Source: a virus
IMG/VR virus record: IMGVR_UViG_3300042197_002668
Span: 1 to 28,814 of that record
Direction: 5' to 3' (one strand)
DNA length: 28,814 nucleotides
Below, in pieces: positions 8,368-25,510 of the stretch (positions within the stretch are counted from its first letter, which is position 1; every line of letters starts with the position of its first letter). The translations under genes and the position numbers were made by a program. The notes below the pieces were generated by a model, which did not search any database, had not been told where the DNA came from, and saw only the letters and a list, made by a program, of their open reading frames with translations.

Positions 8368-10341
8368 TCAACGCCTCCAGCCAACGGCCCCGGGACGGTT
8401 TGCGGAACGGACCGCTCTTGCCAGCGGGACCGTAACCCGCCGATCTTGGAAGTCCGCCACGAGCATCACGTTGGGCGAAGATCCCCCGCCCTGCAACCGC
8501 TCCCGCACGGCCTCCGGGCCGCCCGCCGCTGCGACCATGGGGGACGGAACGACGACCTCCCCGCGCCGCAGAATGGCGGGCTGTTCGTCGGTGACAAGGT
8601 TGCCTTGCCGCGTGAACCGGCCCACGTGGAAGGTGGGCTGACGTGCCGCAACGATGGCGGCTTGGGTTGCGCCCGTGACGCCAGCGAAGACCGCGCCGAC
8701 AGGGTTAGGGGGAACCATGGCCAAGAAGCCCACCACGGCCTGCGCGGTCTTGATCGCGATGTCGCCCAAAGCAAACGCCTTGTTGATCGCGAACTGCTTG
8801 CGCGCGGCCATGCGGCCCATCTCCGTTGTCGTGTCGTAGCTCTGCGCGTATTCGGCCATCACTTCTTGGATCAGCCCGGAGACTTCGGACGCCGCTTCAA
8901 GCCCGACTTGGATCGTGTTGAACAGGGCTTCACGCTGCTTGGCTTGGTTCTCTGCCAAGGCGTTTAGCTCTTCTTCGCGGAGGGCCTTGATCTGCTCGCT
9001 GGTCTGCCGCTCCTTCTCCAGCCGCTCCGCGTCCGCTGCGTCTCGCAGATCCTTGACCTTCATCTGATACTCACCGAGGGCCGCCAGCTCTGCCGCTTGG
9101 GCTTCGGCCTGTACTTGCGCGTTGCCTTCTTGGGCCTTGGCGAGCTCCCGGATCGCCTCAATCTGCCGATAATACGCGGCCTCCACCTGTTGCTCTTCCG
9201 AGAGGAAGTCAAGCTGTCCCCGGTTTTGGATCTCGTAGAGCTGCTCCAGCGTAGCCGCCAGATCCTCCGCTGCCTTGCGCGCCGTCTCCGCTGCCTTGCG
9301 CTCTGCCTCTTCGCGCTTCTTCGCCGCCGCCGCGCGGGCCTGCTCTGCCTTGCGCTGCGCTTCCGCCGCACGCCGCTCCGCTTCCGCTTGGCGTTGCCGT
9401 TGCGCCGCTTCTGCGCGCGCGCGCCTTGCCTCTGCTTCGCGCTGCTTGGCCGCTTCTTCCGCTGCGGCGTTGTCCGGCTTGGCTTCTTCTTGTTGTTGCG
9501 TCAGACCGTAAATCGAGTTTCCGTATTCGTCCACCGCCTGCTTGGTTGCAATGATGCTCGCGGTCTGCTGGAGCCAGTACTTGTTGTAGTTCTCCATGAA
9601 GGTGCCGTGCTCTGCTTGCTGCGCGGCCATGATCGCGAACTGATCAACCTCTTTGCGCTCTGCGTCTGTGAGCTGGCCGACTACGCCACGCCGCTTCAAG
9701 TCAAGCTCAATTGCCGCCGCCTGCGCGTAGTTGGTCTCAGTAATGGCCGGGGCCAGCTCTTGCGCTTCGGCAAGGGCCAAGAGCTGCTTCGCGTCCGCAA
9801 GGGCGCGCGTGCTTTCGTAGCTCCCCTGCATGGAGGACTGAACAGTCTTCAAGGCGTCGTCTAGCGTCTTGCTGTTGAACTCAATGTCATAGAGTCCCTT
9901 GACCGTTTCTTCGGCCGCTTCGCGCTGCTTCTGCTGCGACTCGTAGAGGTAGCCGAGGGTCGCCACGAGTCCGGCCAAGGCAAGGCCCGCCGCGCCTGCC
10001 GAAAGAGGTAGGGCAGAGAAGACGGCTTCCATGTCTCCGAGCGCGCCGGTCACTTCTCCGATGGTCCCGCCGAAGATCCGCCCAACGCCCTCGATGCCGC
10101 TGATCGCGCGGCCTGCGTCCATGGCCCCTTCTGTCGCTTTGCCGGTCGACTCCGTAACTTGCGCCGCTGCCTGCTTGGCTTCCTTGGCCACGGCGTCTAG
10201 CCGCTTCTGGAACTGCGCTTCAAGCTTCGCGCCCGCCTTGATCGCTGCCTCTGACGTGACGTCCGGGAGCTTCCCGATCTCCTGCGCATAGGCTTGGATG
10301 TTCGCGGTAATGGCGACGGATGCGGTGGCGTTGCGGCTCAT
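8368..10341 (-). CDS. Tail tape measure protein, 657 aa
   Basis: It has the hallmarks of a tape measure: a helical N-terminus with a glycine/alanine-rich hydrophobic segment (about 100-165, GTIGEVTGALGD and AGAAGLALAGLVATLGYL), then a long coiled-coil region extremely rich in Ala, Glu, Lys and Arg (about 280-500). The C-terminus is FAINKAFALGDIAIKTAQAV, PPNPVGAVFAGVTGATQA, then VGRFTRQG and ILRRGEVVVP, a pattern common at the end of phage tape measures. In this family length scales with tail length, and 657 aa implies a tail of roughly 100 nm. The gene lies downstream of the frameshifted chaperone pair, as expected. GGGAG precedes the ATG. Confidence 0.9.
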   Translation of the reverse strand: MSRNATASVAITANIQAYAQEIGKLPDVTSEAAIKAGAKLEAQFQKRLDAVAKEAKQAAAQVTESTGKATEGAMDAGRAISGIEGVGRIFGGTIGEVTGALGDMEAVFSALPLSAGAAGLALAGLVATLGYLYESQQKQREAAEETVKGLYDIEFNSKTLDDALKTVQSSMQGSYESTRALADAKQLLALAEAQELAPAITETNYAQAAAIELDLKRRGVVGQLTDAERKEVDQFAIMAAQQAEHGTFMENYNKYWLQQTASIIATKQAVDEYGNSIYGLTQQQEEAKPDNAAAEEAAKQREAEARRARAEAAQRQRQAEAERRAAEAQRKAEQARAAAAKKREEAERKAAETARKAAEDLAATLEQLYEIQNRGQLDFLSEEQQVEAAYYRQIEAIRELAKAQEGNAQVQAEAQAAELAALGEYQMKVKDLRDAADAERLEKERQTSEQIKALREEELNALAENQAKQREALFNTIQVGLEAASEVSGLIQEVMAEYAQSYDTTTEMGRMAARKQFAINKAFALGDIAIKTAQAVVGFLAMVPPNPVGAVFAGVTGATQAAIVAARQPTFHVGRFTRQGNLVTDEQPAILRRGEVVVPSPMVAAAGGPEAVRERLQGGGSSPNVMLVADFQDRRVTVPLARAVRSANRPGAVGWRR

Positions 10342-16768: not shown

Positions 16769-18661
16769 TCAAACCCCGCCGGTTTCGGGCGGGGCGGTAG
16801 AGCCCTCCACGACGTCCGCGAACAACGCGGCGATCTGATCCTCCGGAACCATCGGCAACGCGATCCGAACTGCCGCAAAGCCCGCCGACTTCGGGAGCTC
16901 GCCCTTGGCGACGGCCGAGACAGTAGCCACGAGGAACTCCGCTTGCGCGCCGTTCAAGGCAACCTCCACGGCTGCGGACGCTGCGACGTCTTCCACGGGC
17001 GGGGGTGCCGATTGAGCTTCCATGGCTGCGGCGTCTTCCGGCTCTTCGCCCTCTGCGAGCTCCACGGCTGCGGACTCCATGCCTTCGTGCTCCGGGCCTT
17101 CTTCGCTGTCGTCTTCCATGTGATAGGCCTCAGACGGTACGCCCTCAAGCAGAGCTTGGACTTCGGCCAGCTCCGAGCGCAGCGGCCCGGCTTGCTCAAG
17201 GATTGCGTCAAGCCGAAGAACCGCTGCCTCCACCGAGGGTGCTGCAAGCCCGGCCTCACGCTGGATGCGGGCCAGCTCAAGCAGGGCCTCTTCGCGACTC
17301 ATGCCCGGGTTGCGCGCCATCATGACGTCCGAGGAAGACGCGAAGCCGTTCTTAAGGCTCCACTCTTGATCTTCCCGCTCCGCGCGCTCTTCGTCGGGGG
17401 ACTTGCCGACCTCGTGGTAAACGATGCCAACGCCCGCCGGGTCAAGGCCCGCAAGGTACGCCGCGTGGCGCACGGTGCGGAGATCGGCCTTGCGGCAGAG
17501 AGGCCCGCGCCGCCGCTGCTCTTCGCGCTTGGTCTCGTTGGTGAGGTGGATCGCAACGCCGCTCATGGGGTTGGCCCCGGCCCGCACGGCGTCCGTTGGG
17601 GTGATCCCCATGTCGGCCGCGAGCTGCGAGCTGTACGCCATGGCGTAGGCCTGCAGGGCCGGTAGGGTGTCGACCTCCCCGATCTCCGTGACGGACGGCT
17701 GGACGCCCGATTCCAAGGGGACGTGGTAGACAAGATCCCCCGGCTCCGCGTCAAGGCTCATGGTCTGCATGCCGTCGTCTGTCCCACGCACGGTAGACCC
17801 GATCGGCTTGGCGTTGAACACAAGCGCAACCTTGCCGGTAGCGTTGAGGGCTGCGCGGTTGCATGCCGAGAAGAGCATCATTGCTTGTAGGGTGCCGCGC
17901 GCCACGCTTCGGCCGCGCTGCCAGTTCCACAGATCCCCAACGTCCCACGAGCGGTGGATGGACCACGGCAGGAACGGGGAACCGTTCAGCCGCCGCCACG
18001 GGTAGGTGTCCCCCTCGAGGGCGTCCGAACCCGTGGCCTCAAACGTGACGTCACGGCCGAGCTTGCCCGAGCCTTCGGCAAGGTAGACGCCCCACGAGGG
18101 GAAGGCCGGATCGCTGACGTCCCAAACGTCCCACGTGTAGACCGCCTCTTGGTTGATCCGCCGGATGCGAAGCCGCCGCATGACCACGGGCTCTGTCGGA
18201 TCGTCTTGGTGGGCCGTGGCCCAAAGCCGGTGGGACGGCACGACGGAGAACGAGACAAGATCGTCGGCTTCTTCCCCTTCCCCGCTCCCCGGCTCCACGA
18301 GGACGGCGCAAGAACCGCACGTGTAGGTGAGGTACTCCGCGTGCTGTTGCTTCGGCCATAGGTCGTCGCACAGCTCCGCAAGCGGGGCCGCTGACAGGCC
18401 AACAAGGGTGGGCGCGCGGCCGTAATGTCCGGGCGTGCTGACGGCATGGCCGATCGCCGCAAGGGCGTTGCGGGCCGTGTCGGGAGGGCCCCAACGCGCA
18501 AGCCGGTCCCGGCTGACGTATTGCTGAAAGTAGTCCTCAGAGATCGCGTCCACGTCCTCCATCGCGATCAAGTAGCGGACCTCTTGGACGCGCACGCGCT
18601 CCCGTTCGTAGTCCGGGAACATCTCGATCGCTGGCGTGAGGTTGACGTTTGCGCCGCTCAT
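16769..18661 (-). CDS. Portal protein, 630 aa
   Basis: Large protein directly downstream of the large terminase. Residues 1-500 have the mixed helix/strand pattern and tryptophan-rich loops of a portal (YLIAMEDVDAISEDYF; SWDVGDLWNWQRGRS; LAADMGITPTDAV). The C-terminal tail holds an acidic low-complexity linker (about 515-565) and a small helical domain starting ALNGAQAEFLVATV, then VAKGELPKSAG; an LNGAQ domain of this kind ends many portals of this class. The dodecameric portal would be the DNA channel and the terminase docking site. The ATG overlaps the terminase stop (ATGA). Confidence 0.88.
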   Translation of the reverse strand: MSGANVNLTPAIEMFPDYERERVRVQEVRYLIAMEDVDAISEDYFQQYVSRDRLARWGPPDTARNALAAIGHAVSTPGHYGRAPTLVGLSAAPLAELCDDLWPKQQHAEYLTYTCGSCAVLVEPGSGEGEEADDLVSFSVVPSHRLWATAHQDDPTEPVVMRRLRIRRINQEAVYTWDVWDVSDPAFPSWGVYLAEGSGKLGRDVTFEATGSDALEGDTYPWRRLNGSPFLPWSIHRSWDVGDLWNWQRGRSVARGTLQAMMLFSACNRAALNATGKVALVFNAKPIGSTVRGTDDGMQTMSLDAEPGDLVYHVPLESGVQPSVTEIGEVDTLPALQAYAMAYSSQLAADMGITPTDAVRAGANPMSGVAIHLTNETKREEQRRRGPLCRKADLRTVRHAAYLAGLDPAGVGIVYHEVGKSPDEERAEREDQEWSLKNGFASSSDVMMARNPGMSREEALLELARIQREAGLAAPSVEAAVLRLDAILEQAGPLRSELAEVQALLEGVPSEAYHMEDDSEEGPEHEGMESAAVELAEGEEPEDAAAMEAQSAPPPVEDVAASAAVEVALNGAQAEFLVATVSAVAKGELPKSAGFAAVRIALPMVPEDQIAALFADVVEGSTAPPETGGV

Positions 18662-20097
18662 TTCCTGCCCCCGGATGCGCCGTAGCTGGCGCGGATGGAG
18701 AAGCCGATCCGTCTCTGCGTTCCCTTCTCCAACGCATAGCGCGCGGCGTCAAGGACGTCCTTGTGGGGGTCTCGACTGTCCCCCTTGAACCGCCTAACCG
18801 CCTCCACGAGAGCGTTGCAACGCGGGTGGATAACGGCGCGCCCCTCCGCAAACGCGGCGTTGAGAAGCCCCAGCCCGTACCACACCGAGCCCGAGCCCTT
18901 GACGGGGGTATGGATCACCCGGGCCCGCTTGTCGTTGGAGCTGATCCCCGCTTGATACCACAGCTGCGCGCGGAGGATCGCGTTGCTCTTGGACTTCATG
19001 TGCCGCCCGTCGCCCGTGTCGCGGTCCCCGATCCATTCGTCCACGTGTTCGTATTTGAGGCCCACGCTGGCAAGCATGTCAAGGATCGCCTTGGCGTCAA
19101 TCTCCGGGGATGACACCTCCTGCCCTCCGGCTTCGGCGATGAACCAGTAACGCGGGGAGTCGGTGGTTCCGCCGGACACGGCAAGCAGGACCGCCCATTG
19201 CTTCCCGATGACGATCCCGTGGTCGATCCCCACCACGATCTGACAGTCCGCCGGGAGGTCGCGAAGCTCGAACGGTTGCGTAGCGTTGTCAGTGAAGGCG
19301 GTAAGGTAGCGATCCTTGACGACGGGTTCCCACGCTGCCTTGACCCGCATGGGAACTTCCACTTCGGGCCACGCCTTGATCGCCGTCTCGATCCGCTCTG
19401 CCGTGAGGAACGGCCGCGCGTAGCCCTCAGGCCATGCGTTCTCCGGCGTCATGGCCGCGTAATGCTCCGAGAAGACGCCGCCGTCTACAAGCTCCCGGAG
19501 CCAACCTTGATCGGGCATGTTGAGGGTGGGCGTGAAGGCGATCGTGAAGGTGCCGTTGTGGCGGAGCAAACGCGGTTGGAGCTCGCCGTAAGCCCGGGCC
19601 GGTGACGGTTCGTCGCAGTAGACCGCGTGGATGGTCGCCCCTGCCAAGGTCTGCGGGTCTTGCCGGTAGGTGCGGAGAGAGATCACCGAACCCGCGCCCG
19701 GGCCCTTGACGAACCGGATCGCGGGGATCTTCGCGCCGCGGACTCCTTCCCCCTGGACGAAGTAGATCTTCGGGTCAATCTCGTGCTTGGGTAGAATGTC
19801 CCACAGCTTCTCAAGGATCGCCCCGGGTTGGGCCATCTGTTCCAAGGACTCCGAGACAAGCATGACGTTGATCGGGCCAGCGTGGCGCCGGGGCCGGTAG
19901 GGGTTGGTGCCCCGGATCTCGTGGAGAAGGTCCGCAACGAGGACCGTCGTCTTCCCCACTTGGTTAGCCGCGCGGATCAAGCGGCACGTTGAGCCGTCCG
20001 CAAGAACGCCACGCTGCCACGGGGACCACGACGCCCACGCAAGCGGGTCGCGCTCCACAAGCCCGGCCACCTTGGCCCACGCTCCGATCCCCGCCAT
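18658..20097 (-). CDS. terL: Terminase large subunit, 479 aa
   Basis: Packaging motor with ATPase and nuclease domains. Visible motifs are a Walker A variant ANQVGKT (44-50), Walker B IHAVYCDEP (156-164), a coupling motif near TIAFTPT (185-191), and nuclease acidic residues Asp292 (VVGIDHG), Asp358/Asp360 (WIGDRD) and Asp450 (DVLDAARYAL). The length is normal. I chose ATG 20097; a TTG at 20103 overlapping the previous stop is the alternative and would add two residues. The gene follows the small terminase and overlaps the portal start by 4 bases. Confidence 0.93.
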   Translation of the reverse strand: MAGIGAWAKVAGLVERDPLAWASWSPWQRGVLADGSTCRLIRAANQVGKTTVLVADLLHEIRGTNPYRPRRHAGPINVMLVSESLEQMAQPGAILEKLWDILPKHEIDPKIYFVQGEGVRGAKIPAIRFVKGPGAGSVISLRTYRQDPQTLAGATIHAVYCDEPSPARAYGELQPRLLRHNGTFTIAFTPTLNMPDQGWLRELVDGGVFSEHYAAMTPENAWPEGYARPFLTAERIETAIKAWPEVEVPMRVKAAWEPVVKDRYLTAFTDNATQPFELRDLPADCQIVVGIDHGIVIGKQWAVLLAVSGGTTDSPRYWFIAEAGGQEVSSPEIDAKAILDMLASVGLKYEHVDEWIGDRDTGDGRHMKSKSNAILRAQLWYQAGISSNDKRARVIHTPVKGSGSVWYGLGLLNAAFAEGRAVIHPRCNALVEAVRRFKGDSRDPHKDVLDAARYALEKGTQRRIGFSIRASYGASGGRK

Positions 20098-20099
20098 GG

Positions 20100-20609
20100 T
20101 CAAGCGACAATCCCACGCTTGCGGAGGACGGCCACCACGTCAGCCGCCAGCGCCGCCGGGAGGGCATGCGCCGCCGTCACGAGCTGTTCCCGGATCTCTT
20201 CGGGCGTCATGCCGCGTTCGTCGCGTGCGCGCTCGAGGGCCGCGCGGAGGTCACGCCACACCTCGTCCTGCATGCGGAGCAGCGCCACGCGCCCCGAGTC
20301 CGAAGCGGCGTTGGGGAGCTCCGCTTGGGTCTGCCCCCAGCGAAAGACCCAGTAGTCTAGCTCCGTTGCCGTCAGCGGATCGAAGGTGCGCCCCTCCGCG
20401 TCGTCCACCTTGGGCGGTGGGGGAAGCATGACGAGATCCCCAACGCCCTTTGCGGCCTTGCGCTGCGCTTCGCCCCACCAGCGGGACAGGGTGGAGGCGT
20501 GGACGCCGAGCTGACGGGACAGGCGTTGGAAGTTGGGCTGCGCGTCGGTGCCCTCCACGCTGGCGCGCATGACGTCCAACGCTTCGGCCTTCTCTTGGCG
20601 GTTGATCAT
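20100..20609 (-). CDS. terS: Terminase small subunit, 169 aa
   Basis: The N-terminal helix-turn-helix (about residues 27-46, FQRLSRQLGVHASTLSRWW) is followed by a helical oligomerisation region (ELPNAASDSGRVALLRMQDE and VWRDLRAALERARDERG) and a C-terminal helix that may contact the large subunit. It lies immediately before the large terminase. The ATG overlaps the stop of the RuvC-like gene (ATGA), with GGGGG upstream; the much longer open frame upstream is a shadow of that gene. It would recognise the packaging site, possibly the repeat-rich DNA about 100-190 bases upstream. Confidence 0.82.
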   Translation of the reverse strand: MINRQEKAEALDVMRASVEGTDAQPNFQRLSRQLGVHASTLSRWWGEAQRKAAKGVGDLVMLPPPPKVDDAEGRTFDPLTATELDYWVFRWGQTQAELPNAASDSGRVALLRMQDEVWRDLRAALERARDERGMTPEEIREQLVTAAHALPAALAADVVAVLRKRGIVA

Positions 20610-21412
20610 TCGTCCCCCTTTGCATGCTTGCATGGTTGGTTGCCGGGCTCGAGGTCTGCAAACGACGGTCGTAGCGCGCGCAAAACGCGAGAGGCGGGGA
20701 CCCCCGCCCCCCCTGCGCCCTCGGATACACCCCTTTGGACGCCTATTTCGGCCATTTCGGCCACTTTCGGCCCCTTCGCGTTGCGCTTCGTTGCGTTTCG
20801 GGTTGCATCCTTGCCGCCCTCGTTGGACTTCTCGTTGGACGCAGCCCATACCGCCAGCCCAAGGGCTTCGGCCGCATGATCGGGCGCGTTGCGAACCGCC
20901 GCCGGGAGCGTCAGCCCGTGCGGTTGCCATGCCTCCAGCGGGACGCCCGGTGAACGGTCCCCGCGCAACCAGTCCAACGCCACCCGCTTCGCCCGCTCCC
21001 GCTCGAGGGCCACGGGCCGCCCGAAGTAGACTGCCCGCCACGTCGACACGTCCGGCCGCTGTACCGCCACGCCTTGAGCCTCGAGCACGCCAACCGCCAC
21101 GCCAGCCGCCGTTGCCAACGCTACGGGCGCGGGACGGCCCCTGTAAGGCCGCACGGCTTCACACGCCGCCACGGTAGCCTCCACGCCCCGCAGCGACGCC
21201 ACAAGGGCCATTGCGAGCGTTCCGTGGCGCGTCACCCGGTACGCCTCCCCGTCCGCCTCGTGGAGCTCCACACAAGCCGCTAGGGCCCTCCACCACGCCA
21301 GCCGAACCGTACCTGCCATGAGATCCACGACGGCCAGCCCGCCAGCCCGTGAACCCGGGTCCACGCCCACCGCTGTTCCACGTGTTCCTCGTCTGTTCCA
21401 CGTCTGTTCCAC
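20606..21412 (-). CDS. RuvC-like Holliday junction resolvase, 268 aa
   Basis: RNase H-fold nuclease with the RuvC signature: VGVDPGSRAGGLAVVD with Asp18, a second acidic residue in VAACEAVRP (Glu85), and APDHAAEALGLAVWA with Asp178 and Glu182. Such enzymes resolve branched DNA before packaging. Residues about 191-268 are a low-complexity tail (ATRNATKRNAKGPK, EGAGGAGVP) that is not part of the fold. I chose GTG 21412 because GGGAG lies 6 bases upstream; GTG 21454 is also open but would translate the 9-bp repeats (as MEHVEQ). A still later GTG just before VDPG is possible. It is the first gene of the late operon. Confidence 0.8.
   Translation of the reverse strand: MEQTWNRRGTRGTAVGVDPGSRAGGLAVVDLMAGTVRLAWWRALAACVELHEADGEAYRVTRHGTLAMALVASLRGVEATVAACEAVRPYRGRPAPVALATAAGVAVGVLEAQGVAVQRPDVSTWRAVYFGRPVALERERAKRVALDWLRGDRSPGVPLEAWQPHGLTLPAAVRNAPDHAAEALGLAVWAASNEKSNEGGKDATRNATKRNAKGPKVAEMAEIGVQRGVSEGAGGAGVPASRVLRALRPSFADLEPGNQPCKHAKGDE
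20701..20720 (-). other. Predicted G-quadruplex motif
   Basis: The minus strand reads GGG CGCA GGGGGGG C GGGGG, which satisfies four runs of three or more G with loops of 1 to 7 bases. It lies in the coding strand of the low-complexity tail of the RuvC-like gene, about 90 bases before the small terminase start. Confidence 0.55.
20745..20800. repeat. Short tandem repeats of about 10 bp (TTTCGGCC and TTGCGYTTCG)
   Basis: TTTCGGCC occurs three times at 9-11 base spacing (20746-20774), then TTGCGCTTCG and TTGCGTTTCG stand in tandem (20781-20800). They lie inside the non-conserved tail of the RuvC-like gene, upstream of the small terminase. The period is close to one helical turn, as expected for a protein-binding array such as a packaging site. 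Confidence 0.6.
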
Positions 21413-21455
21413 GTCGATCTCCCTGCCCGTTACAGGCTGTTCCACGTGTTCCACG
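21374..21455. repeat. Left cluster of 9-bp iterons, TGTTCCACG x6
   Basis: Units start at 21374, 21383 (one mismatch, TGTTCCTCG), 21394, 21405, 21438 and 21447, all in the plus orientation. Start-to-start distances are 9, 11, 11, 33 and 9, so most units lie close to one helical turn or a multiple of it. Each unit is half of the bacterial parS palindrome (TGTTCCAC/GTGGAACA), but no full palindrome occurs. The cluster overlaps the first codons and leader of the RuvC-like gene. Confidence 0.85.
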
Positions 21456-21482
21456 TCCTTCTAGAAGATCATCATCTACAGG

Positions 21483-21515
21483 ACACACACACACACACGC
21501 ACACACGCGCACATG
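21483..21515. repeat. Alternating purine-pyrimidine tract, mostly (AC)n
   Basis: Strict purine-pyrimidine alternation over 33 bases: eight AC units, then a mix of GC, AC and AT steps. It lies at the centre between the two iteron clusters. Such tracts can adopt Z-DNA under negative supercoiling. A G-rich and T-rich stretch (21515-21540) follows. Confidence 0.85.
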
Positions 21516-21544
21516 GGGTCTGGGGGGTGTTTTTAGCCCCGAGA

Positions 21545-21626
21545 CGTGGAACACGTGGAACGCCCTGTAGCCGCCTAGTAGATCGGCCTGTTCCGCGTCG
21601 GTGGAACACGTGCCACACGTGGAACG
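21545..21626. repeat. Right cluster of 9-bp iterons, mostly inverted (CGTGGAACA/G)
   Basis: Units are CGTGGAACA (21545-21553), CGTGGAACG (21554-21562), one direct TGTTCCGCG (21589-21597), then three contiguous 9-mers, GGTGGAACA, CGTGCCACA and CGTGGAACG (21600-21626). With the left cluster it forms an inverted repeat: 21438-21457 pairs with 21543-21562 at 19 of 20 positions. Confidence 0.82.
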
Positions 21627-21637
21627 CCCCGCCGCCC

Positions 21638-23098
21638 TCACGGCGTCACCTTGCGAGACCAAACCCGCGCAGAATGGCCGCGAACCTTGCGAGGTTGGCA
21701 ACCGAACCGCCGAAGCAGCGCGCCCACCCGCTTACCGTCCCGGGTGTTGGCGTCCTTGACCTCGATGCCGATCCCCTGCATGACGTCCAAGAGCGTGAAC
21801 TCATACGCCCTGCCCGCAAGCCACTCCTTGACCGGCCCGCTCCACGGGTCGTCCACTTGCCACTCTGCGGCCTCGGCCTCTTGCTCTTCCCGCCATTCGG
21901 GCGACAGGTGCCACGGCTCGCCCGCCAAGTAGAGCTTGAAGGCTTCGGCCCACAACTGCAAAACCGCCGCCTTGAGCGCATCCAGCCGGAACGGCCCCGT
22001 GGTCCCCGTCTTGACCGGCCACCAACGGCGGGAGCCCGTAGGGTCGTTCAACAGCTCCACCTCGTTCGTGGTGCCGACGAAGACGCAGCGGCGGGGACGC
22101 TCGATCACGTTGCGCCCGTAGGGTGGGCGGTAACGGTCGACCCGGGAGGTGATGACGCTCTTGATCGTTGCGCTGTCTCGCCGGTTGTTCCATTTCTCGA
22201 CTTCGGCCAACTCGATCAAAAGCGCGCCGTCCAAGGACTGATAGAAGTCCTTGGAGCCCGGATCGGCTTCGGTGTCCGTGTAGAACCCGCACGGTGCCAA
22301 GGCCCGGATCGCGCTTGACTTGCCGTCTCCCTGCCTGCCTTGGAGCACGAGCACGGTATCCACCTGGCATGCGGGACTCATGGCCCGCGCCACGACGGCC
22401 ACGAGGAACCGCTTGGCGTACTCCCGCGCAAGGGGCCGATCTTCCACGCCAAGGAAGTCCGCCAGCCAATGCGGCGTCCGCTCCACGCCGTCCCACTCCG
22501 GCAAGCCCAAGAAGAAGTCCATGACCGGATCGAAGGCCAGCCGCCGCGCCGCCGTGGCCATGGTCCGCTGGATCTGGTCGACCGTCCATTCTGCCCCGAG
22601 CTCGTTGGTCAAGGCGATCTGGATGTCCGTGTAATCTTCATCCCGCACGCCGCGCCCGTCGTACTCGATCGCGCCGGTGAAGCCGTTGTAGCGTGCCCGG
22701 CCCGCGAACTTGGGGTGGTGCTCGAGGACCACGGCAAGGTTGGCCGCCGTGCGCTTGGGCTTGCCGAACTCGTCCATGTCAAGCGAGCCCATCCACGCCA
22801 GCACGGCGGGGCCGTCCTCGCCGAACGGGTCACGCTCCACCACGCGCAAGCCCTTCGCCGCTGCCCGGAGCTCCTGCTTCAGCGACCGCGCGCGGGCCGT
22901 CCATTCCTTGTCCAGCTCCAGCCGCCCGAGCTGCGTAAGCGACCCGCCAACGTCAGCGGCCGCGTCTGCAACGAGCTCCGGCCACCGCTCCGCACGGAAC
23001 GTAGCCCAAGCGGCCCCACGGTCCGCAGCGTCCAAAACGTCGTCTATTGCCCTCGTCAGAGGGCTGTGGTAAGTGTCCAACGCGGCTTCCTGTCGCAT
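21638..23098 (-). CDS. VirE-type (virulence-associated E) P-loop ATPase, probable replication helicase, 486 aa
   Basis: The C-terminal half carries the VirE-family ATPase motifs: Walker A GRQGDGKSS (254-262), Walker B ALLIELAEVE (292-301), sensor CVFVGTTNE (338-346) and the arginine motif GSRRWWPV (355-362). The N-terminus is helical with a domain around WDGVERTPHWLADFLGV. In phages these proteins act with a primase to load or move the replication fork, but the primase module usually fused or adjacent is here only a separate zinc-finger gene. I chose ATG 23098 because AAGGAG lies 5 bases upstream; ATG 23161, directly after the previous stop, would add 21 residues. The iteron region lies immediately downstream. 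Confidence 0.85.
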   Translation of the reverse strand: MRQEAALDTYHSPLTRAIDDVLDAADRGAAWATFRAERWPELVADAAADVGGSLTQLGRLELDKEWTARARSLKQELRAAAKGLRVVERDPFGEDGPAVLAWMGSLDMDEFGKPKRTAANLAVVLEHHPKFAGRARYNGFTGAIEYDGRGVRDEDYTDIQIALTNELGAEWTVDQIQRTMATAARRLAFDPVMDFFLGLPEWDGVERTPHWLADFLGVEDRPLAREYAKRFLVAVVARAMSPACQVDTVLVLQGRQGDGKSSAIRALAPCGFYTDTEADPGSKDFYQSLDGALLIELAEVEKWNNRRDSATIKSVITSRVDRYRPPYGRNVIERPRRCVFVGTTNEVELLNDPTGSRRWWPVKTGTTGPFRLDALKAAVLQLWAEAFKLYLAGEPWHLSPEWREEQEAEAAEWQVDDPWSGPVKEWLAGRAYEFTLLDVMQGIGIEVKDANTRDGKRVGALLRRFGCQPRKVRGHSARVWSRKVTP

Positions 23099-23161
23099 CC
23101 TCGCTCCTTGTGTGTGTCCATAGCCCGCGCCCATCGGTTCCCCGCCGGTGGGCGCATCCAT

Positions 23162-24655
23162 TTAGGTTCCCGTCAACGCTCGCACGGCCTTGGCCTCCAT
23201 GACAGGGGCCGAACCGTCAGCGGGCCAACGCCACGCCCGGGCGTAATGCCAACTCTCCGGAAAAGCCGGAAGGTCTTGCCGCACCCGCCGCCCGACCGCC
23301 AATAGCACTCCGATAAGGTCAGCCGCCGCCCCGCGCGGCAAGTGCTCCGGAGCCTTGGCGAGCTCACGCACGGCCTTCCGGGTGGCCTCCGGAAGTCGGG
23401 AGATCGGCCCCTGTAGCCGCGCCCCTAGCCGCTCCAGCTCTGCGCGCTGCTTCGTGGTGGCGGGGAGCTGGCGAGCCTCACCCACCACGCGCTGCGCTTG
23501 GACGTCCAGCCCGAGCTCAAGGGCTTGCGACACGAGCTGCGCCGCGAAGGCGTCCGCTTTGCCCGCCGCCGTGGCGATCCCCTCCAGCCGCAACGCCTCC
23601 ACGGCCTCTTCCGAAGCCATCGCCCGCACTGCTTCGTCGGCCGCTTGCCCCTCCAGCTCCGCAAGCCGCTCCGGAGTCGAGAACGCCTGCAAGGGACACA
23701 GCGAGAGGGGATCGAAGATCGTAGCCCGTGCCTTCCCCGGGTACGTCCGAAGCACGCGCCCCGCCTCTTGGACTAGTCCGAGGGCCGACCGTGGACGCCG
23801 CAAAGCGATCCAGCGGAGCCACGGCAAGTCCACGCCCTCCGTCAAGAGGTTGACGTGGACAAGGGCGCGAAGCCGTCCGCTCTTCAGCCACGAGAGATAA
23901 TCAGCCAAGTCCCGCTTGCTTGTCAGCCCCGAGACCGCCGCAGCGGGCCAACCTTCGGCCGTCATTCGGGCCGCGTAGTCTAGGGCATCTTCGATCCGCT
24001 CTGCCGACACGATCCCCGGCCCCTCCGGCCGCTCCCGGCGCAGCATTTCCAACAACGCCGCGTCCACGCCTTCGTCCTCACGGTGCCACGTCACGACGTC
24101 CGCCGGGACCACGACGCCATCGCCGAGGGCGTCCGCCAGCCCGTAGCGGTAGAGAAGCGGAGGATCCCAACCCGGGATCGCCCCGTCCGTCCGCCAAGGG
24201 GTGGCGGTGAAGCCAAGGCGCGCCCGAGGGGCCAACAAGTCCGCCGCCGCCCGCACCACGTCAGAGGCTAGGCCACGGTGGCATTCGTCAGCGATCCACA
24301 CGTCCGGAGCCCCGCGCCCCGCCTCCATGGCCTCTGAGACGAACCGGGGGAACGACGCCACGCAGCACACCACGACCCGTCGCCCTGGCTGCTTGTGGGC
24401 CGCGTAGAACAGCCCAACGGCGTCCTCCCCAAGCCGTGCCGCCAGCGTGGCCCCGAGCTGCACCACGAGGGCCGCTGTGGGGACCGTCACGACCGCCCAC
24501 GCGCCGTCCCGCTCAAGGACCGCCCGCAAGACCTCCGCTTGGAGGATCGACTTCCCGGAGCCTGTGCAAGCCTGCACGACGCGCCGCCCGCCCGCGCGGA
24601 CGGAGTCGACGCAGAGCGGGAGGGCTTCGGCCTGCCAGCGGCGCAAGGTCGTCAC
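23162..24655 (-). CDS. DEAD/DEAH-type superfamily 2 DNA helicase, 497 aa
   Basis: Motifs appear in order: a Q-like region RRWQAEAL (5-12), motif I ACTGSGKS (29-36), motif II DECH (123-126), motif III FTATP (149-153), motif V HVNLLTEGVDLP (267-278) and motif VI QEAGRVLR (296-303). This is the RecQ/RAD25-like layout of phage replication helicases. The C-terminal third (about 320-497) is helical and not recognised. The start is GTG at 24655, overlapping the previous stop as GTGA; TTG 24667 is open but less likely. It is coupled with the upstream winged-helix gene. Confidence 0.88.
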   Translation of the reverse strand: MTTLRRWQAEALPLCVDSVRAGGRRVVQACTGSGKSILQAEVLRAVLERDGAWAVVTVPTAALVVQLGATLAARLGEDAVGLFYAAHKQPGRRVVVCCVASFPRFVSEAMEAGRGAPDVWIADECHRGLASDVVRAAADLLAPRARLGFTATPWRTDGAIPGWDPPLLYRYGLADALGDGVVVPADVVTWHREDEGVDAALLEMLRRERPEGPGIVSAERIEDALDYAARMTAEGWPAAAVSGLTSKRDLADYLSWLKSGRLRALVHVNLLTEGVDLPWLRWIALRRPRSALGLVQEAGRVLRTYPGKARATIFDPLSLCPLQAFSTPERLAELEGQAADEAVRAMASEEAVEALRLEGIATAAGKADAFAAQLVSQALELGLDVQAQRVVGEARQLPATTKQRAELERLGARLQGPISRLPEATRKAVRELAKAPEHLPRGAAADLIGVLLAVGRRVRQDLPAFPESWHYARAWRWPADGSAPVMEAKAVRALTGT

Positions 24656-25110
24656 GTGGCCCGCCAAACCAACCCGTCAGCCGCCACAAGGCCCGCCAGC
24701 GCAAGCCGCTCCAGCGACGGCCCCACGTTGAACGACGTGGCCGCGCGCCGCCGGAGCTCCCGCACGGTGCAAGGCCCGCCGTCGTCAAGGGCTGCAAGGA
24801 CGGTCCAATCTTGACCCATCAGACGGTTTTGATCGGGCGGCTGATAACTGCCGTCACGCGCCGCCGGACGTGGCCGCGAAGGCTTCGGCGTGACTTTGGC
24901 GGGCTTGGGCGGTGGGATCATTTCCACCGCCACGTAATACGTGGCCTTGACCGGCCCGGGCTCAAGGTAGCCGAGCTTCCGAAACGCCGCAGCCATGGCC
25001 GTTGCCTTGGTCTGTGGGACGCCCAACGCTTCGGCCAGCTCCTTAGAGGTGATCGGGAGCTTGCCCGCCTTGGCGTGCAGACCGAGCAGGACTTCGGAAT
25101 ACTTGGACAC
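24652..25110 (-). CDS. Double winged-helix DNA-binding protein, 152 aa, GTG start
   Basis: Residues about 1-62 contain a winged helix (ITSKELAEALGVPQTKATAM, AAFRKLGYLEPG, then a strand TYYVAVEM). A Pro/Lys-rich linker (67-92) leads to a second helix-turn-helix (CTVRELRRRAATSFNVGPSL and LERLALAGLVAADGLVW). The start is GTG 25110 with GAGGGG 7 bases upstream. It lies between SSB and the helicase, so an origin-binding or helicase-loading role is an attractive inference, perhaps binding the iterons; a regulator is the alternative. The longer open frame upstream overlaps the ssb gene and is not used. Confidence 0.75.
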   Translation of the reverse strand: MSKYSEVLLGLHAKAGKLPITSKELAEALGVPQTKATAMAAAFRKLGYLEPGPVKATYYVAVEMIPPPKPAKVTPKPSRPRPAARDGSYQPPDQNRLMGQDWTVLAALDDGGPCTVRELRRRAATSFNVGPSLERLALAGLVAADGLVWRAT

Positions 25111-25120
25111 GGTCAACCCC

Positions 25121-25510
25121 TCAGAACGGAATGTTGGCGTCCGGCTCGCCCGTGTAACCGGCAACCGGGGTGGCGTGCTCCGTGGCCGCACGGTCGATCA
25201 AGCGGGCCGTCTGTGACGCCACGATCACTTGACGGGACTTCTCTTGTCCGTCCTTGCCGGTCCAAGTCTCTGTCTCGATGTGCCCGACCACGAGGACTTT
25301 GGAGCCCTTGCGCGCGTCCTTGCCGAGCCATTCGGCCTCACGACCAAAGACCTTGACGGTGTGCCATTCGGTGACGTTGACGTAGACCTCACCACGCTTC
25401 GCGCGCCTTGTGGTCGCTACGTTCATGCTTCCAAAGTGGTTGCCGTTAGGGCTTTGCCGGATCTCCGGCTCCCGCCCGAGGTTCCCGATCAGCGTGACTT
25501 GACAGAGCAT
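25121..25510 (-). CDS. ssb: Single-stranded DNA-binding protein, 129 aa
   Basis: The OB-fold starts MLCQVTLIGNLGREPEIRQS and continues with NHFGSMNVATTRRAKRG, WHTVKVFGREAEW, KGSKVLVVGHIETETW and VIVASQTARLI, the normal order of bacterial-type SSB. The C-terminus is the conserved acidic tip (PDANIPF) that recruits host and phage replication proteins. It is shorter than host SSB because the linker is short. GGAGG lies 7 bases before the ATG; the start overlaps the end of the primase-like gene by 22 bases. Confidence 0.92.
   Translation of the reverse strand: MLCQVTLIGNLGREPEIRQSPNGNHFGSMNVATTRRAKRGEVYVNVTEWHTVKVFGREAEWLGKDARKGSKVLVVGHIETETWTGKDGQEKSRQVIVASQTARLIDRAATEHATPVAGYTGEPDANIPF

Follow-up and report, generated by a model that had tools for sequence, protein, structure and literature searches.

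What role does a dense array of short repeats play between the replication and terminase genes of a phage? The window analyzed here, an entire IMG/VR record of 28,814 bases that may be only part of a phage genome, carries twelve 9-bp iterons at 21374-21626, arranged as two sets of six. An earlier note, made from the DNA alone, had described twelve iterons in two clusters with a 20-bp arm pair, had pointed out their likeness to halves of the chromosomal partition site parS, and had offered three roles: replication origin, late-gene switch or site of host ParB capture. We examined the geometry of the array, its recurrence in other genomes and the protein encoded beside it.

Layout of the array and its gene neighborhood

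The iteron consensus is TGTTCCACG. Allowing at most one mismatch, the window has 28 matches to it where 7.3 would be expected, a number reached in none of 100 shuffles. Of these 28 matches, 11 fall within the 253 bp of the array; a profile recovers the twelfth site, giving an array of 6+6. The VapE-distal set (21374-21455) consists of six TGTTCCACG sites at 21374, 21383, 21394, 21405, 21438 and 21447, all on the plus strand. The VapE-proximal set (21545-21626), assigned to the minus strand, has minus-strand sites at 21545, 21554, 21600, 21609 and 21618 and a plus-strand site at 21589; the site at 21609 has two mismatches to the consensus. Two 20-bp arms, at 21438-21457 on the plus strand and 21543-21562 on the minus strand, form an inverted pair that matches at 19 of 20 positions. 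Both the two clusters and the arm pair of the earlier description are therefore borne out. We add to it that the spacing of the whole array is mirror-symmetric. All six iteron mirror pairs share a common centre to within 1 bp, the paired midpoints summing, from outer to inner, to 43000 or 43002, which places the axis of symmetry at position 21500. Five of the six pairs lie on opposite strands, and a mirror test counting opposite-strand pairs only, with the gaps and strands shuffled as the null, gives p = 0.007.

The two sets enclose a central gap of 89 bp (21456-21544), the proposed melting or loading centre, whose AT enrichment is relative only (46%, versus 33% in the surrounding region). It contains a 33-nt tract of alternating purines and pyrimidines, ACACACACACACACACGCACACACGCGCACATG (21483-21515), which far exceeds any other such run in the window, the second longest having 14 nt.

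The array begins 11 bp past the vapE stop and separates the replication genes from the terminase genes. The order on the minus strand is a 215-aa ORF, a winged-helix protein (24652-25191, MarR_2 match), an SF2 helicase of the replication module (23162-24667, ResIII/DEAD family match), a VapE-like (PF05272) AAA+ helicase (21638-23161), the array, a small HTH-like ORF (20100-20615, start approximate) and the terminase large subunit TerL (18658-20103). The 215-aa ORF, which has no family match, reads by its sequence as carrying a zinc-ribbon-like cysteine pattern. The small HTH-like ORF likewise has no family match and is a putative terminase small subunit (TerS) by virtue of its position directly upstream of TerL. 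Besides TerL, the record has a tape-measure match and a weak phage-tail match. A nucleotide search of phage records using 20000-24700 returned no match. Elsewhere in the window, a 139-aa ORF at 1937-2356 combines matches to HNH and to Recombinase.

Recurrence of arrays 3' of VapE genes

First relatives came from a scan for exact copies of the 18-mer TGTTCCACGTGTTCCACG in 2.9 million viral contigs, 26 of which contain it, most of them with clusters of the 9-mer. A VapE homologue was found by tblastn with the window VapE as query in 12 of these 26, in the DNA examined, and two further 18-mer contigs have VapE as well, one as a gene in the locus (L028) and one as a PF05272 match in the contig (L032). 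The TGTTCCACG motif is not exclusive to VapE, because three whole contigs with TGTTCCACG clusters gave no PF05272 match: in two of them the cluster lies beside a TerS-like gene (G001/L012, 54 kb; G006/L024, 58 kb) and in the third near TerS and TerL (G002/L013, 57 kb). Clusters of TGTTCCACG/TGTTCCATG also adjoin a TerS-like gene in L008, L015, L020, L021, L024, L029 and L011, with no VapE in the DNA examined. Full parS-type palindromes occur in contigs that also have a TGTTCCACG dimer, TGTTTCACGTGAAACA twice and TGTTCCACGTGGAACA once, the positions being in L012 (G001 36421-36436), L024 (G006 55546-55561) and L016 (G003 8558-8573).

Single window proteins gave few relatives, and the protein-led search was an alignment scan with VapE alone as query. 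With no motif given, we determined which 9-mer recurs most often in the first 500 bp beyond the 3' end of each VapE gene. At least seven copies of this de novo 9-mer were present at 48% of 73 VapE loci (non-redundant at 80% identity), compared with 0.5% of 1,288 further windows taken elsewhere in these loci. A second motif-blind sample, which has some loci in common with the first (e.g., L144/L203 and L125/L226), comprised 299 Bacillota and 299 Pseudomonadota genomes drawn evenly by Pfam model; at least six copies within 500 bp were found in 50% and 41% of these, respectively, and in 1.1% of controls. Restricting the count to the 300 bp that follow the stop, we found at least six copies at 48% of 118 VapE loci but in 0.7% of 148 intergenic controls given the same test (Fisher p ~1e-23). 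About half of the VapE loci have fewer than six copies by the strict 9-mer count, and about 40% have fewer than five in the 300-bp test; at these loci the array may be too degenerate, placed elsewhere or absent.

The earlier note had called for a search for the same array in relatives, and in many of them it does recur 3' of VapE, with its iteron sequence changed. This sequence differs widely among lineages, and GTGTCACAG, CTGACGCAC, CTTATACCC, CAGTACCCG and GTCCAACCT are among the iterons, mostly unlike parS, that we encountered. What recurs across lineages is the place 3' of VapE, the opposite strands over the gap and a gap often of about 100 bp: the inner iterons lie on opposite strands across the central gap in 51 of 59 arrays, and the gap has a median of 93 bp and measures 90-110 bp in 30 of the 59. 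The commonest total is 11 iterons per array, then 10, with nine arrays each at 9 and 12, and 47 of the 59 arrays have 9-13 sites. Mirror pairs are in excess over 38 arrays (123 observed versus 85.6 expected), with the mirror test reaching p < 0.05 individually in only 12 of the 38. At L038, L145 and L231 we found 6+6 mirrors built from unrelated iterons.

The alternating tract recurs as well. Of the VapE 3' regions, 29% contain an alternating purine-pyrimidine run of 16 nt or longer, versus none of the 148 intergenic controls, and in arrays with a run of 12 nt or more the run sits within the central gap in 29 of 37 cases. Mean AT content across arrays is 0.53 in the central gap versus 0.47 in the region. 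The literature searched, which leaves most subscription journals outside it, yielded no description of a recurrent alternating purine-pyrimidine centre. We tentatively raise the possibility that VapE phages and prophages hold an undescribed class of origin, in which mirror geometry and not sequence would be conserved and a Z-DNA-prone alternating tract would work in melting.

Several phages (L022, L025, L028, L018, L010 and L033) have a second iteron array 1.1-1.8 kb past the VapE-proximal one, inverted wherever its orientation is readable. The iteron variants of the two arrays are similar in L022 and differ in L018, L025, L028, L010 and L033; the second one looks like a half-origin split off by genes. 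The DNA 3' of VapE at L163 instead carries tandem GAGGATGGT-like repeats and no mirrored array, and these may have nothing to do with an origin.

VapE as a candidate initiator

The window VapE matches PF05272 at 2.5e-69. It strongly matches one solved protein, PriRep1 (PDB 7pds), at 2e-33 by phmmer and 1e-105 by profile, and a Foldseek comparison of the VapE model with PriRep1 with dsDNA gives 4e-27. The 7pds entry is titled 'with dsDNA', and the deposited name of the protein is 'Similar to D. nodosus vapE'; we take its PriRep1 to be the product of a staphylococcal pathogenicity island. Judged by its sequence, the window VapE is an AAA+ SF3/D5-like helicase of a predicted self-loading type. 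Its C-terminal part (approximately residues 436-507; 21641-21856, minus strand) comprises in the AlphaFold2 model helices at 441-449, 457-463 and 473-485 and strands at 488-492 and 499-503, with a pLDDT of about 70-96 across residues 441-507. This modelled helix-helix-helix-strand-strand unit reads as a winged helix and is the proposed reader of the iterons. Closely related VapE proteins of the L009 group that differ at the C-terminus are accompanied by different proximal iterons (TGTTCCACG, TGGACCACG and TGTACCACG), a pattern that suggests cognate recognition, although joint inheritance could yield it too, since the C-terminus and the iterons are physically linked. Across lineages, iteron similarity is only weakly correlated with identity in the C-terminal domain (Mantel p 0.07), so it is the L009 group, together with precedent, that makes the case for recognition.

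That precedent comes from SaPIs and other PICIs, where the C-terminal domain of SaPI Rep reads iterons lying directly 3' of rep (PMC7581432), two iteron sets surround an AT-rich region that is a possible melting site, a pri-rep-ori segment is able to replicate (PMC6092414), and head-to-head loading has been proposed for a pair of hexamers (PMC9894130). We consider it very probable that the window array is a phage replication origin, at which VapE would bind the iterons, load as two opposed rings and start replication bidirectionally. The C-terminal winged helix would make the contact with the iterons, and VapE would load itself as two oppositely facing rings, perhaps with each iteron matched by roughly one subunit (6+6). 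These rings would then open the central gap, where the alternating tract might aid strand separation, and the opened gap would allow replication to start in both directions. Here we infer iteron binding, double hexamer, melting and origin activity for the window array from SaPI Rep/PriRep1. Of the roles first suggested, that of an origin is thus well supported by comparison, through the recurrence of the array 3' of VapE; the GC-skew analysis proposed along with it shows no turn at the array, a result that is uninformative because the record may be partial.

A SaPI/PICI-type origin of the double-hexamer kind, carried by a phage, is the reading that fits the array best. As in the Rep-ori systems of SaPI1 (PriRep1), SaPIbov1 (Rep) and EcCICFT073, the putative origin lies directly 3' of the initiator gene, the initiator helicase is homologous to PriRep1, and two iteron sets face each other, in the window around a centre enriched in AT only relative to its region. 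The window differs from these systems in that its sites are set 6+6 in mirror spacing, its centre is marked by an alternating CA/CG tract where theirs is plain AT-rich DNA, and the array belongs to a phage and not to a satellite; with phage terminase and tail genes present, the record is not a PICI. A 2018 paper had termed this organization unique to PICIs (PMC6092414). The system is also reminiscent of SCCmec Cch2, a helicase of D5-like type that uses its C-terminal domain to bind direct repeats located 3' of the gene encoding it (PMC7581432), but Cch2 has only three 5-nt iterons and is nearer to SaPI5 Rep than to VapE/PriRep1. The SV40 T-antigen origin shares inverted recognition elements and two head-to-head SF3-type hexamers (PMC9894130), which in the window would be the proposed VapE rings, while the DNA-binding domain of T-antigen is N-terminal and its recognition sequence differs. 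A text search of the literature, again with most subscription journals outside it, found no paper treating VapE together with an iteron.

Packaging, partition and regulation as alternative roles

The position of the window array, between VapE and the TerS-like ORF and TerL, would also suit a pac or cos site at which the adjacent terminase small subunit initiates packaging, as would the contigs that have TGTTCCACG clusters near TerS-like genes and no PF05272 match in the record. However, the genes downstream vary over 38 arrays, including TerS/TerL, a methyltransferase, lysis genes, a resolvase and an integrase (read from sequence by eye, the upstream VapE being fixed by sampling), and arrays were recovered by the motif-blind VapE samples. 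Given these variable downstream genes we rejected a TerS pac/cos site, which we regard as improbable.

Capture of host ParB by half-parS repeats, aiding segregation or positioning of phage or prophage DNA, draws on TGTTCCAC, which the window iteron shares with half of a chromosomal parS. In P. aeruginosa, a single GTTCCAC half-site is enough for ParB to bind in vivo (PMC10419367), so incidental binding of ParB to the array may occur in a suitable host. In contrast to chromosomal parS, the window has no match to the 16-bp palindrome TGTTNCACGTGNAACA at up to one mismatch, and the matches at three mismatches are only the iterons themselves. No ParA or ParB family was found among the window ORFs scanned with Pfam (short ORFs in part); within these searches, the palindrome and both genes are missing, as first noted. 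The parS framing itself is not supported, the orthologous, VapE-linked arrays of other lineages mostly carrying iterons unlike parS. We rejected parS and ParB capture as an explanation on this ground and give it very little probability. The likeness to the bacterial chromosome-partition site is probably a coincidence, because the two-sided layout recurs behind many relatives of the helicase gene with different repeat letters.

Least probable of all is an operator function, controlling either the late genes or, as autoregulation, the replication module itself: the array stands where the terminase genes begin, and iterons bound by an initiator can also regulate nearby genes, but it lies at the vapE 3' end with 12 sites in mirror spacing, and the genes downstream of such arrays vary, which makes regulation of TerS/TerL, the late-gene switch suggested earlier, unlikely as its main role.

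Taken together, the replication-origin reading would give many phages and prophages, in place of the annotation 'virulence-associated protein E', a pair of origin and initiator that can be tested, and would extend the double-hexamer origin of staphylococcal islands to phage genomes. The combination of fast-changing iterons with a recurring geometry would then offer a natural system in which to follow how initiator and origin change together.
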